A stretch of 64,000 nucleotides of DNA from Muriicola sp. Z0-33 (GTDB taxonomy: Bacteria > Bacteroidota > Bacteroidia > Flavobacteriales > Flavobacteriaceae): positions 183,601 to 247,600 of the forward strand of contig NZ_JAFMPW010000006.1 of the NCBI RefSeq assembly GCF_026126425.1. The letters are read 5' to 3'. This document shows positions 1,884 to 45,871 of the stretch, piece by piece. How positions within the stretch are numbered: the stretch's first letter is position 1; the number at the start of each line of letters is the position of its first letter. The translations under genes were made by a program, and so were the position numbers. The notes under the pieces were generated by a model. That model did not search any database. It saw nothing but the letters and a program-made list of their open reading frames with translations, and was not told where the DNA came from.

Positions 1884-2216
1884 CTATGAAATATTCGGGG
1901 GCCCTCTGAGAGAGAAATGAAGTTTTTGAAAGGAACTTAAAAATGAATAATAATTACTATTGATACTGAACTGCCTGATGGGGGAGTAAACCTCAAAATT
2001 TACAATAGGGGGGTAAAATTGCTGTGTAAGCTTAAACTTCTGAAACTCACAGTCAAATTCGGCCTCATGAATGTGAACAGCAATGTTTTCGACACATTTC
2101 TGATTTTTATGCCCGTGCACAGCATGGGCTAATTTCATGATATTCGGCAGTGCCATAAAGGCGATAAGCGTAAAAGAAGCAAGGGATAAGTAAAGGTCTC
2201 TTTTAATAGCCATCAT
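1884..2216 (-). CDS. small secreted His/Cys-rich protein beside TonB receptor
   Basis: About 110 residues, uncharacterised. A hydrophobic N-terminal segment (about residues 7-27) looks like a signal peptide or anchor. After it come HAVHGHKNQKC and HIHEAEFDCEF, which put four His and two Cys in a short stretch and resemble a transition-metal site. It ends in an RGPP-containing tail. An upstream ATG at 2249 adds 11 residues but lies before the hydrophobic signal; ATG 2216 or 2213 is preferred. It ends 39 bases before the TonB receptor start, so the two are probably co-transcribed. From memory, similar small proteins recur next to TonB receptors in Flavobacteriia; the proposed role of handing metal to or from the receptor is inference. 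Confidence 0.7.
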   Translation of the reverse strand: MMAIKRDLYLSLASFTLIAFMALPNIMKLAHAVHGHKNQKCVENIAVHIHEAEFDCEFQKFKLTQQFYPPIVNFEVYSPIRQFSINSNYYSFLSSFQKLHFSLRGPPNIS

Positions 2217-2267
2217 GCTGCAAATTAATTCAATATAGACGTGCCACAATGTTAAGGAAATTATAAT

Positions 2268-2585
2268 TTACTTTAAAAGAAATCCGAGCCCCATTCTTTG
2301 TAGCATCTTCTTTTCAAAATTCCAGAAAAATCTGAATTGTCCGAAAACCCAGCCAAAGACAACTAGTAATACCTGGTATATCGGGAATATAATCAGTAAT
2401 CTGATGGTCCAGTAGATCCACCCACTCCACCAACTATCCGGGAAAATTGATCTGTCAAATCCAATCCATTCTAGAAACGGACGTGCCACATAAACAGAAG
2501 ATGATCCTGTAATTGCAAAAACAACGAAGATGATGATCAGCTGAAAGGTAGACTCAATGCCCCAACGACTTTTTAGTTTATCCAT
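2268..2585 (-). CDS. small membrane protein, DUF6787-like
   Basis: 105 residues with two hydrophobic segments: about 15-35 (QLIIIFVVFAITGSSSVYVA) and about 58-85. A Trp-rich linker (DSWWSGWIYW) lies between them, with basic residues at both ends. The N-terminus MDKLKSRWGI and overall pattern resemble the flavobacterial DUF6787 family as I remember it; function unknown. It lies 32 bases downstream of the DUF6146-like lipoprotein gene in the same direction, so probably in one transcript. Confidence 0.75.
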   Translation of the reverse strand: MDKLKSRWGIESTFQLIIIFVVFAITGSSSVYVARPFLEWIGFDRSIFPDSWWSGWIYWTIRLLIIFPIYQVLLVVFGWVFGQFRFFWNFEKKMLQRMGLGFLLK

Positions 2586-2617
2586 AGGAATTTAAAAGAG
2601 CTGGCAAATATATTCAA

Positions 2618-3085
2618 TTAAATCCTTGGCACAAAAGGTCCCAGACGTTGATTGTATTTACGCTGGAAATAGATAAAGTAATTGTAGAGTTTGAAATTTA
2701 CCTCATAACCATAGTCTATATGCGGCTCATAGTCTATTTGCATCTGATATAGGTTAGGGTCAAATCGCATGGGCTGCAGCACCCTTTGGTTCCAATTAGA
2801 AACAAGTATCCGGTTTCTGGTTTCCAGGTACGACTGGGAATAATACCCTTCGGGCTTTGCAATACTTTGCAGCCAGAAATTAAAACCAGGTTCAATTATT
2901 ATTATCTCATATTCGGTCTTATCGCTTTTAATCTCAATTGTATCTTCCGTAGTTTGTTGAAATGCTAATTTTTCATCTTCACTAACAACAACGGCCTCCT
3001 TTGAGCTTTTACAGCCAATTGCAAACCCTAATGCAACCACAAAAATACTCAGCAACACCCCTTTCGTCCTATTCATCTTTTGCAT
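2618..3085 (-). CDS. lipoprotein, DUF6146-like
   Basis: 155 residues (152 if the ATG at 3076 is used). The N-terminus is a lipoprotein signal, with a hydrophobic stretch ending in AIGC before KSSKE, so the Cys at about residue 25 would be lipidated. The mature part has a DUF6146-type pattern: EPGFNFWL near 65-75, a YLETRNR..V.NWN segment, and an aromatic-rich end containing IDYGYEVNFKLYNYFIYFQRKY. Function unknown; likely membrane-anchored on the periplasmic or outer-membrane side. An intrinsic terminator just upstream separates it from the DUF937 gene, so it probably has its own promoter. Confidence 0.8.
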   Translation of the reverse strand: MQKMNRTKGVLLSIFVVALGFAIGCKSSKEAVVVSEDEKLAFQQTTEDTIEIKSDKTEYEIIIIEPGFNFWLQSIAKPEGYYSQSYLETRNRILVSNWNQRVLQPMRFDPNLYQMQIDYEPHIDYGYEVNFKLYNYFIYFQRKYNQRLGPFVPRI

Positions 3086-3116
3086 TTTAATAAATCAATA
3101 ATCTCTAATAAAAGAT

Positions 3117-3148
3117 ACAAAAAAAGCCATTCGCACCGGCGAATGGCT
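3117..3148 (-). terminator. intrinsic terminator after the DUF937 gene
   Basis: A perfect 10-bp stem (AGCCATTCGC / GCGAATGGCT) with a 4-base loop is followed on the minus strand by seven or more T. It lies about 33 bases after the DUF937 stop codon. Confidence 0.88.
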
Positions 3149-3181
3149 ATGTTAAATAACGTTAAGTTTTATTGCGTTTAA

Positions 3182-3820
3182 TTATTTCCCAAAAAGACCT
3201 CCCAGTAACCCTCCCAGGCCACCGCTTTTCTTTTTAGATCCACCGCCCATTACCATGCCGGCGACGTCATCCAGGATGCTTCCGTCACCATCTGCATCAA
3301 GCAAAGTGGTAATAAGACTTTGGTTTTGTTCTGGCTGCCCCCCGAGCATACTGCCGAGCAAGCCGTTCATTCCCTGGGCATCCTGTACATTGCTTTGTGC
3401 TTTCTGTTTTCCGAGAAAGCCCATTACAATAGGAGCGGCTATTTTTAAAATTTGCCCTATAGAGCCAGCATCTACGCCAGATTTCTGACTCAATGCATTT
3501 TCTACCTGTGGTTGTTTGTTTCCAAATACGTGGCCTAAAATTCCTGCTCCATCATCAACAACTTCCTTGTTAACGCCTCCGCCGAATAAACCCTGCAGGT
3601 TATCCAAAATACTGCCATCGTGTTTGGAGGATAACGCACTCATTAATCCTTCAGCACCTCCGGGTTGTGCTACATTTTTTTTCATTGCCCCAAGAAGCAG
3701 TGGCATAGCCATGCTAAGAACATCAGAAGTCTTGTTTTCGGCCTGCCCTGTTTCGCTTGCCACCCCGCTGATTAATTGTTTGCCCATTGGGCTGTTTAGT
3801 AAATCTAGTAATCCAGACAT
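3182..3820 (-). CDS. DUF937 (YidB-like) protein
   Basis: 212 residues, no signal peptide. It starts MSGLLDLLNSPMGKQLISG and carries repeated LL/GG-rich segments (PLLLGAMKKN, LSSKHDGSILDNLQGLFGGG, LLDADGDGSILDDVAGMVMGGG) typical of DUF937. The tail is Gly/Lys-rich (GGGSKKKSGGLGGLLGGLFGK). The internal GSILD repeat suggests an ancient duplication. It is the last gene of the acyl-CoA reductase-serC-serA group and is followed by a terminator. Cellular function is unknown. Confidence 0.88.
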   Translation of the reverse strand: MSGLLDLLNSPMGKQLISGVASETGQAENKTSDVLSMAMPLLLGAMKKNVAQPGGAEGLMSALSSKHDGSILDNLQGLFGGGVNKEVVDDGAGILGHVFGNKQPQVENALSQKSGVDAGSIGQILKIAAPIVMGFLGKQKAQSNVQDAQGMNGLLGSMLGGQPEQNQSLITTLLDADGDGSILDDVAGMVMGGGSKKKSGGLGGLLGGLFGK

Positions 3821-29252: not shown

Positions 29253-29900
29253 TTACAGGAAAAGGTTAAACAGACTTTTTAACGAATGTTGTAGTTGTGT
29301 AAATAAGCCACTAAGTGTTTTATCTGTTGTTTTTTTTGTGAGATCGTCTTCTTTTGCTTCTGTTTCCTTAACTTTAATACCAATCTTCTCTAATTCCTGC
29401 CTTTCTTTTTCTTTATAATAACTAAGTTCTAGGTCCATGGCTTCCAAGTCAATCCCGTGTACATGTTTATCGTATAATTTAATCCTAATAAAGTAGACGA
29501 ATGGAATTACGATCATACAGAATGGAAGAAGCCAAAGTACATTGTCAGTATCAATATAATTATCTTCTGAAATTACACCCTCAAAAATTTGAAAGGCATA
29601 CATTAAAATTGGAATTAATATTATATGGTACCACCAATGTTTACAAGTGAAAAACCAAATAAGTAGTAAATAAAGAGGTACAATTTTTCCTAAAAGAAAC
29701 CAGATATAAACATTAATATTTGGAAATCCATTTTTATCAATCGTAATGCCAAGAAAATTTATTGTAGCTTCGGGGTCACTAGATACATATTCATGCATCT
29801 TAAAAATAAAGGGAGAAACCAAGATAAAAATCACCATTAAGGATTCTAAAAGAATTCTTCTTCTAGCCTTATTTCTTTTTTCGTTAGTAGGTTTTTTCAT
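29253..29900 (-). CDS. four-helix membrane protein, WW-motif family, copy A
   Basis: 215 residues, family not recognised by name. Basic N-terminus, then four predicted transmembrane helices (about 16-35, 62-82, 87-107, 122-142) and a charged cytoplasmic tail with coiled-coil character (YYKEKERQELEKIGIKVKE). The hallmark is IWFFTCKHWWYHIILIPI between helices 2 and 3, preceded by FLGITIDKNGF. Both features recur in the two units encoded at 30701-31944, so this is a local three-member family. It has its own terminator. Function unknown; the short extracytoplasmic segment after helix 1 (GITIDKNG) is the most conserved feature besides the WW motif. Confidence 0.72.
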   Translation of the reverse strand: MKKPTNEKRNKARRRILLESLMVIFILVSPFIFKMHEYVSSDPEATINFLGITIDKNGFPNINVYIWFLLGKIVPLYLLLIWFFTCKHWWYHIILIPILMYAFQIFEGVISEDNYIDTDNVLWLLPFCMIVIPFVYFIRIKLYDKHVHGIDLEAMDLELSYYKEKERQELEKIGIKVKETEAKEDDLTKKTTDKTLSGLFTQLQHSLKSLFNLFL

Positions 29901-30011: not shown

Positions 30012-30197
30012 TTAACCCTTCTTATTATCGCCGTTTATGATTTTTGTTTTGTCAACACTTTTTTTATCTCCATTGACCAGCTCAGTTTTATCAACTCCAT
30101 TTTCGTATAGTTGATCATCCGCTGTATTAGCTGTGCACGCAGATCCAACTAGAACTAAGAAGGCGCAAATGCCAAATAATAATTTTTTCATGTTCAT
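30012..30197 (-). CDS. small lipoprotein with duplicated motif
   Basis: 61 residues. Lipoprotein signal LFGICAFLVLVGSAC places the acylated Cys at about 21. The mature 40 residues contain an imperfect duplication: VDKTELVNGDKK and VDKTKIINGDNKK. Start is ATG 30197 or 30191. A -7 box upstream and a terminator downstream make it a complete single-gene unit. Function unknown; it lies between copies of the WW-motif membrane family and could belong with them. Confidence 0.65.
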   Translation of the reverse strand: MNMKKLLFGICAFLVLVGSACTANTADDQLYENGVDKTELVNGDKKSVDKTKIINGDNKKG

Positions 30198-30700: not shown

Positions 30701-31408
30701 ATGGTAACTAAGCTTTACACTTTCAAGAAAGAAGTTCATATAATCCATATTGGACTAGCATTCCTTATTCTAATACTACCGTTTGCTCTCTTTCTTCATT
30801 TATTTTTTAGTGATGATGTTAATATCATGACACTTTTTAATTTTAAGATTGATCACGGTTTTAATAATAACAGAGGCTGGGCCTGGAATTTTCTGTCAAT
30901 TATTATCCCTCTTGTACTTATGTTGATTTGGTTTAGTACAAGTTACGATTGGTGGCGTTATGTTTTGCTTGTTCCGATATATCTATATATTACTCGAATT
31001 ATAGTAAAGATTTTCAGATATCCAAACCTTATCGAAGACAACCTTGCAATCTTTTCAATAATAATCGCACTAGTTTCAATCTTAGTTATAGTGTTTTTGG
31101 ACTTAATTATTTTAACTAGATATAGGGAGAAGGGATTTCTGCTTGTAAGGCTTAAATTATTTAATAGTAAAAGAATGAGATTATTTTCTTGGCTTAAATC
31201 TAAAATGATTTTCGCAGAAAATTTAATGTCATTTGAAGATAAAAATAGACACTTTAAAAAGTTATACTACGCAAAGTCCATTCTTGAAAGTGAAATTGAA
31301 AAATACTCGAAATTTGACTCCTTAGATTTTGCTCGAAAGAAGAAATGGGATTTTGGAATTACATTATTCATTTTAATTTCGTGTGCTTTTTTTTTGCCCA
31401 TACATTAA
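30701..31408 (+). CDS. WW-motif membrane protein, unit B (5' part of a frameshifted gene)
   Basis: 235 residues from ATG 30701 (ATG 30680 would add seven). Four transmembrane helices (about 12-34, 66-84, 89-109, 119-141) carry the family mark LIWFSTSYDWWRYVLLVPI; a long charged linker follows. The last 20 residues (WDFGITLFILISCAFFLPIH) match helix 1 of the related proteins, but the frame then stops. The matching continuation lies in the next frame from a run of nine T. With one extra T, or a -1 slip there, a single 414-residue two-unit protein results. So this is either a frameshifted (broken or switchable) gene or a sequencing error. Function unknown. Confidence 0.7.
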   Translation: MVTKLYTFKKEVHIIHIGLAFLILILPFALFLHLFFSDDVNIMTLFNFKIDHGFNNNRGWAWNFLSIIIPLVLMLIWFSTSYDWWRYVLLVPIYLYITRIIVKIFRYPNLIEDNLAIFSIIIALVSILVIVFLDLIILTRYREKGFLLVRLKLFNSKRMRLFSWLKSKMIFAENLMSFEDKNRHFKKLYYAKSILESEIEKYSKFDSLDFARKKKWDFGITLFILISCAFFLPIH

Positions 31409-31944
31409 TTCCGCCAGATGTACAAACTTATGATATTTCTGGCATAACAATTACTACGCATGGCTTTGCAGACGTCCGAAGTTTTGTTTATTATTTCAAT
31501 GTTAAATTATTGATAATTAGCCTATTGTGCACATGGTTCATTAGTTCAATTTATTGGTGGCGATATGCTATTCTTTCAGGAATAATATTAAATACCTATC
31601 AGCTTTGGGAAGGATTTCAAGAAAATTTAATGTTAATAGACGAGGCCGAATATCTATATTCCTTGCCTTATATTTTCATTCTAGTGACCGTACTTATTAT
31701 CACATCGGAAACGATTAAATATCATTCAAAAGTCCTATTGCTGTATAAAACGATATGCGGGGAAATTGAGCAAATTATTGGGGAAATGAACGGTCCTATT
31801 AAGGCGGTAAAGAGACAAAAGATTAAGTTCTTTAATTTAAAAAGATCAATTAATCAAAACGGAGTTACTCTGAAAAAATTTAAAGATCTCCAGAAATTAC
31901 GAGAGGAGCTTATCAATGAAATAAATGCGGGTGCGGGCAGTTAA
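31345..31944 (+). CDS. WW-motif membrane protein, unit C (3' part of a frameshifted gene)
   Basis: 199 residues if started independently at ATG 31345, which overlaps the upstream frame by 64 bases. Homology to copy A (GITITTHGF matches GITIDKNGF; CTWFISSIYWWRYAILSGI matches the WW motif) begins right after the T run, so the natural N-terminus of this unit is probably supplied by the upstream frame. Three further helices (about 51-70, 75-92, 109-128) are followed by a basic coiled-coil-like tail. It overlaps the convergent regulator gene by 4 bases. Function unknown. Confidence 0.65.
   Translation: MGFWNYIIHFNFVCFFFAHTLIPPDVQTYDISGITITTHGFADVRSFVYYFNVKLLIISLLCTWFISSIYWWRYAILSGIILNTYQLWEGFQENLMLIDEAEYLYSLPYIFILVTVLIITSETIKYHSKVLLLYKTICGEIEQIIGEMNGPIKAVKRQKIKFFNLKRSINQNGVTLKKFKDLQKLREELINEINAGAGS
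31387..31396 (+). other. T9 run / slippery heptamer at the frame junction
   Basis: Nine consecutive T (31387-31395) followed by G. Read in the upstream frame, the end is T-TTT-TTG, a classical -1 slippery heptamer, and a T9 run is long enough for transcriptional slippage. A -1 shift joins units B and C exactly where their homology to copy A continues. Confidence 0.7.
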
Positions 31945-32336
31945 TCTTTGTTCTTTAGGTGTTTTTGGGCGCGTTCTATCTCGGCCGTAACTTCTTTTAA
32001 AAGTCCCTGCAGTTCTTCTTCATGTCTTTCCCTTATTTTCATTTCGATAATGCGCTCTATTTGTTCCTGCCTTGCCTTGGGTAATTGATCAAAATCCAGG
32101 ATGTCTTCCTCCTGGTCCTTTTTCAGCATTTCGCCTTCACCGGTCAATAGCCATACTACATTTAATTGAGGATAGGTTTTAATGATGCTTTCTATTACAT
32201 CGCTGCCAATAGAAGCATTATTTTTTTTCATTCGTAAAGTGTAGCCGTTACCGGCACCTATGGAAATATCAAACTGTCGGGCACTGAGCCCTGCAAATTT
32301 GATAAATTCCATCAATCGATCTATCGTTTTAAACAT
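31941..32336 (-). CDS. XRE/CI-like DNA-binding protein
   Basis: 131 residues. A degenerate helix-turn-helix lies at about 5-60 (RLMEFIKFAGLSARQFDISIGAGNGYTLRMKKNNASIGSDVIESIIKTYPQLNVVWLLTGEGEML), followed by an acidic stretch and a long helical tail (about 80-131, KARQEQIERIIEMKIRERHEEELQGLLKEV) likely to form a coiled coil. The VVWLLTGEGEML segment parallels LYWLLNGKGSF in the XRE regulator at 17181-17555. Targets unknown. It ends overlapping the membrane gene on the other strand. Confidence 0.8.
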   Translation of the reverse strand: MFKTIDRLMEFIKFAGLSARQFDISIGAGNGYTLRMKKNNASIGSDVIESIIKTYPQLNVVWLLTGEGEMLKKDQEEDILDFDQLPKARQEQIERIIEMKIRERHEEELQGLLKEVTAEIERAQKHLKNKD

Positions 32337-45832: not shown

Positions 45833-45871
45833 ATCCATCAGCCTTTATTTTAGATTGATGGATTTTTTTTT
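45833..45871 (+). terminator. intrinsic terminator after sucD
   Basis: An 8-bp stem (ATCCATCA / TGATGGAT) with a 15-base loop, then nine T. Starts 41 bases after the sucD stop. Confidence 0.85.

Follow-up and report, generated by a model that had tools for sequence, protein, structure and literature searches.

A T9 run at the frame break of a two-unit membrane protein gene: a candidate homopolymer frameshift in Flavobacteriaceae

The window, a 64,000-nucleotide stretch of the Muriicola sp. Z0-33 genome (4.15 Mb in 49 contigs), carries at 30701-31944 a membrane protein gene divided between two overlapping reading frames. The upstream frame (ORF1, 30701..31408, + strand, 235 residues) encodes a first unit of four predicted helices, a linker and the predicted first helix of a second unit; the rest of unit 2 continues in the -1 frame (ORF2, 31396..31944, + strand). 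The frames change at a run of exactly nine T (31387..31395, + strand), with C before and G after it. Across the run, frame 0 reads GCT TTT TTT TTG CCC ATA CAT TAA, ending at 31408, with the TAA stop (31406..31408, + strand) 10 nt from the run; the -1 frame stays open over 31318-31944 (208 codons), and, as read from the frames, a single inserted base brings both into register. An earlier, sequence-only reading of this DNA had claimed the exact T9, the -1 relation and a slippery heptamer, and the window bears these claims out: T TTT TTG (31390-31396, + strand) lies in phase within the run, as does T TTT TTT (31387-31393, + strand). The second T9 of the window, at 45863-45871, lies between listed ORFs.

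The same reading had proposed tandem units, and this was confirmed: ORF1 is related both to unit 2, as read in the -1 frame, and to the product of a one-unit membrane gene at 29253..29900 (- strand), to which it aligns. By hydropathy, one unit comprises four predicted helices, as in the one-unit gene, and a fifth helix, WDFGITLFILISCAFFLPI, is predicted at the end of the ORF1 product. The predicted first helix of unit 2 is thereby split by the break, and ORF2 alone is without that helix both in the window and in the split relative described below. Past the T9 run the -1 frame reads FFFAHTLIP, which aligns with the helix end of relatives in which both units are fused in one frame (LLFVHYLIP in the fused relative P0002); the H of this H-x-x-[ILFA]-P pattern was seen by eye in 8 of 16 fused rows. 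When 16 fused relatives are aligned with the window, its two pieces abut at P0002 residues 223/226, a point that falls within a single helix (208-229) of the P0002 structural model, where residues 211-230 have pLDDT values of 92-93. In the model as a whole (mean pLDDT 78.6), eight helices reach membrane length; simple hydropathy gives fewer, 6 or 7, in three fused relatives tested. The membrane units matched no Pfam or NCBIfam family above curated cut-offs, with matches below cut-offs only, and had weak matches only in PHROGs and PADLOC (best PADLOC E-value 0.0011, 1/20 members). A PDB sequence search gave a best E-value of 0.048, Foldseek found no chain at E 0.001 or better among those listed, and the VIA-align rows were mostly unrelated helical proteins. 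The membrane gene family is uncharacterised; the type of mechanism considered here is already known.

Searched against about 5.8 billion proteins, ORF1 had two matches, the fused P0002 and P0001 (233 residues); ORF2 matched P0003 (185 residues) and the partial P0004, which does not extend to the T9 run. ORF1 and P0001 agree at both ends, starting MVT[KR]LY (which makes ATG 30701 the common start, the ORF list having used TTG 30665) and finishing at matching places, SCAFFLPIH in the window and SCAFFLPIR in P0001. P0003 starts MCFFFTHTLIP, compared with VCFFFAHTLIP in the window. P0001 and P0003 are both ENA-listed on a contig of 118,394 bases, and were placed on one contig from the equal contig size and the fit of their overlap. 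The DNA of the relative was reconstructed from these two proteins: of 114 out-of-frame overlaps of 10-179 nt tested between their coding sequences, a single one was consistent, 28 nt long with a -1 offset and forcing C-T9-A. The forced sequence is TCATGTGC-T9-ACCCATACG, compared with TCGTGTGC-T9-GCCCATACA in the window; when the same procedure is run with the true offset on the proteins of the window itself, its result matches the real DNA. P0001 and P0003 look, from their sequences, like two halves of a split relative, and the pair illustrates how gene callers turn a locus of this kind into two separate protein entries. By this reconstruction the T9 run is retained while its flanks change, and the comparison of run length and frame in relatives that had been proposed comes out in favour of a shared site: the split relative also has T9 and the same -1 offset, so that one inserted base would restore its register too.

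The two pieces differ in conservation, with 116/235 residues identical between window and relative upstream (49%) and 114/180 downstream (63%). Conservation of the downstream piece above the upstream one is not expected of an untranslated end, and ORF2 is therefore apparently under purifying selection. Among 397 genomes of the family, the best match of P0001 outside the Muriicola sp. Z0-33 genome is 28% identical. The broken genes found number two, both with T9 and out of frame, and the break site is conserved between them; the GeneTack criterion, as described in PMC3711429, asks for a cluster of at least five genes that share a conserved frameshift site. A further protein, P0034 (184 residues; longest JGI contig 1856 bases), is a second unit starting inside the first helix (MPIFFNIHLLIP), like P0003, and is perhaps, judging by this start, the product of a third split gene.

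The overlap raises the alternative that two polypeptides are made, ORF2 re-initiating just before the T9 run and the halves assembling in the membrane. TGC-T9 is preceded by the codon GTG in the window (31381..31383, + strand) and by ATG in the relative, the 28-nt frame overlap reaches from that start codon to the stop, and relatives with separate, slightly overlapping unit genes exist. This GTG is moreover the sole possible independent ORF2 start in the stretch common to window and relative: a start in the ORF2 frame upstream of T9 requires a frame-0 codon beginning TG, a rule that leaves only the ATG adjoining T9 in the last 60 residues of P0001, so that the ATG of the ORF2 frame at 31345..31347 (+ strand) is without a counterpart there. 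However, ORF2 started at GTG 31381 would lack the first helix of unit 2, leaving it as the end of ORF1, whereas in the separate-gene relatives later units start ahead of their first helix and keep it whole. The shared start is itself weak evidence, because, ahead of a TGT cysteine codon, three of the four possible TCN serine codons create ATG, GTG or TTG. Under start-codon context rules from PMC8710568, as far as given there, an A at -3 is absent here and also in 5 of 9 other ORF starts (window and locus L046), so the context is not decisive on re-initiation. We regard synthesis as two polypeptides as unlikely.

Two units that are always separate genes with their own conserved starts would have spoken against a joined protein, as the sequence-only reading had noted, and this is not the pattern in the family. 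Searched through 397 family genomes, a two-unit profile identified 32 full-length genes, with nearly the whole profile covered, in 24 of the genomes, all of these genes being single-frame; 8 of the genes were part of the profile itself, and two rows of genome G218 that are marked with a TAA finish at their own stop codon. Some profile match was present in 274 of the 397 genomes, largely to one-unit genes, weaker matches being only partly listed. On this sequence evidence, the two-unit gene usually takes the form of a single-frame fusion. Units encoded by separate, successive genes also occur, two in G168, G005 and G277 and four in G148. Homologues bear names such as Muriicola, Cellulophaga, Robiginitalea and Sediminicola, and one is named as Flavobacteriaceae bacterium. 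Tandem arrays were observed as well, with four separate one-unit genes at L149 (G148), four fused two-unit genes at L082 (G369) and three at L088 (G255), suggesting frequent duplication of units. Fusion, separation and duplication of units are thus all seen in the family, and the window represents a third form.

A T run above 8 occurs in 0/33 distinct single-frame two-unit genes (43 loci scanned), and T9 is therefore associated with the break; A9 is found in two of the 33. Within this genome, 74 distinct A/T runs of at least 9 were taken from the window and 70 sampled loci, excluding runs within 300 nt of a locus end (the whole genome has 123 overlapping 9-mer matches). By length criteria only one of the 74, the run at 31387-31395, lies at a frame break. 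Thirty-four of the 74, this T9 included, lie inside open frames of at least 200 codons, counted with strand not resolved. The 33 other runs in long open frames indicate that such runs are tolerated and that slippage on them may be weak; they argue against strong slippage at every such run, and against a genome ridden with homopolymer errors.

These counts bear on whether the break is a decayed gene or an assembly error. Some relatives are without the gene at this locus, as decay would allow, and homopolymers are generally known to be error-prone in some sequencing methods. However, the same break is present in a second taxon with its second half conserved, and 73 of the 74 sampled runs show no frame break. 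Two pairs among 20 contig ends share exact stretches of 77 and 95 bases, a pattern that suggests a short-read k-mer assembly and also counts against an assembly error. Because the relative is split alike, none of the 33 fused genes has such a T run and a single run of 74 sits at a break, random decay and base-calling error are unlikely, and we assign this explanation the smallest probability of all. Phase variation, in which the length of the T9 run changes in the DNA and a cell has either the two-unit or the truncated protein, is improbable to much the same degree as two polypeptides. A long T run in a membrane protein gene is a plausible contingency site (general knowledge; see also PMC3711429, in the part concerned with such sites), and the run is retained while its flanks change. 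Against this, both copies are T9 and out of frame, a point that is weak at n=2, and none of the 33 fused genes is an in-frame copy with more than 8 T in a row. Sampling within genera, this one included, yielded a single genome each. The sequence-only reading had left several of these explanations side by side; the conserved break now favours a programmed or recoding site and disfavours decay and base-calling error.

Signals for ribosomal frameshifting were sought around the run. A hairpin is predicted at 31413..31443 (+ strand), 16 nt downstream of T TTT TTG, with z-scores of -2.78 on 65 nt, -1.56 on 100 nt and -0.20 on 149 nt. As a conserved downstream hairpin it was rejected, 4/11 of its pairs being impossible in the relative for any codon choice. 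No GGAG, AGGA or GAGG was seen by eye in the 20 nt before T9, and the comparison of window and relative yielded no closely placed or conserved stimulator of -1 ribosomal slippage, hairpin or Shine-Dalgarno-like. Stimulators are not always found in prokaryotic -1 frameshifting, and U_UUU_UUU is among the E. coli motifs that exceed 0.10% without stimulators, U_UUU_UUG being absent from that list as presented in PMC4066793. Ribosomal -1 slippage may thus occur at the in-phase T TTT TTT.

Taken together, the evidence makes a recoding site the best-supported explanation, because the break has been kept between proteins that are 49%/63% identical, and we consider it probable, from the sequences compared, that this is a two-frame gene joined by slipping one base at T9, most probably during transcription by RNA polymerase. 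The polymerase would insert one extra U at T9, or the ribosome would slip by -1, and either route would join the frames into the same fused protein. The joined frames would encode a predicted eight-helix two-unit protein beside a five-helix truncated one, a pair of products that is likely because ORF2 alone is without a helix of its unit and ATG 31345 is not shared; the ratio of full to truncated product would presumably matter. Between the two routes, transcriptional slippage is favoured slightly, because the search for a conserved stimulator of -1 ribosomal slippage found none and because T9 is a known slippage length and the E. coli polymerase favours poly-T and insertions. That polymerase slips more on poly-T, and on four runs it inserted bases about three times as often as it deleted them, according to the data given in PMC6260861. 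One insertion is the change needed at T9, which fits this bias.

The proposed transcriptional slippage resembles that of Shigella mxiE, in which two overlapping frames are joined by an inserted nucleotide at a U run and slippage is needed for the longer product, as described in PMC1088944; the mxiE run is named as T9 in PMC6260861. As in mxiE-type genes, an A/T run of about 9 or more stands here where two overlapping frames meet. In contrast with mxiE, a regulator gene with reported slippage, the window encodes an unrelated membrane protein for which we infer slippage. Citrobacter rodentium tssM1 is likewise the gene of an inner-membrane protein interrupted after a homopolymer, with two length variants that are both needed; it differs in having A11 rather than T9, in encoding a secretion-system component and in that frameshifting was experimentally shown (PMC4256274, in the parts on tssM1). 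A nine-base run (A9) leads to two product lengths in Thermus thermophilus dnaX, as summarised in PMC1088944, although slippage gives the shorter product there and would give the longer one here. The in-phase T TTT TTT and T TTT TTG resemble the X_XXZ_ZZN sites of programmed -1 ribosomal frameshifting, but a conserved stimulator is missing and the frameshift product is here a predicted one. A literature search on frameshifting in Flavobacteriaceae found only the prfB frameshift among the matches listed, and one on programmed ribosomal frameshifting in this family found no paper. The gene at 30701-31944 is a testable candidate for conserved homopolymer frameshifting in the group.

The locus also draws attention to a gene pair in which a tandem-unit membrane protein and a putative DNA-binding protein are encoded tail-to-tail. 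The convergent gene at 31941..32336 (- strand), putatively helix-turn-helix-like, overlaps the two-unit gene by 4 nt in the window. We take its product to be putatively DNA-binding by sequence type and from weak PHROG hits, which include PHROG 8, transcriptional regulator, at an E-value of 0.0013. The partner stands tail-to-tail with a full-length two-unit gene in 24/25 of the relatives' loci, the 25th being at a contig end, with 6-332 nt between the matched parts. At E 1e-15 or better it occurs in 51 of 397 genomes, 24 of which, this genome included, have a two-unit gene. It is not confined to two-unit genes, occurring also in G168, G005, G277 and G148, which have separate unit genes, and no two-unit gene was seen around it in G246, G306 and G057. 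At locus L147 (G057), the putative DNA-binding gene is present three times within 1920-3781, and a two-unit gene was not seen at that locus. Both genes are missing from G120 (the closest locus compared by the one-unit gene, 84%), G080 and G018, and the pair looks like an accessory module, next to genes that are presumably ald and porX. A literature search found no description of the tandem-unit membrane and putative DNA-binding pair, and we know of none for this tail-to-tail arrangement.

More tentatively, T9 could serve as a dosage device, polymerase slippage fixing the ratio of eight-helix to five-helix product in one lineage. Such a device would be a third way of linking units, beside fusion and separate genes, in a membrane family whose two-unit genes almost always have a convergent putative DNA-binding gene as partner; we hold it possible but doubtful.

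A small lipoprotein-like gene adjoins the one-unit gene in the window (30012-30191, - strand) and in two relatives (L140:5280-5501; L141:5029-5310). The number of its V-D-K-T-Q-L-I-N-G-D repeats differs between relatives, and the size of the gene seems to vary by tandem repeats.
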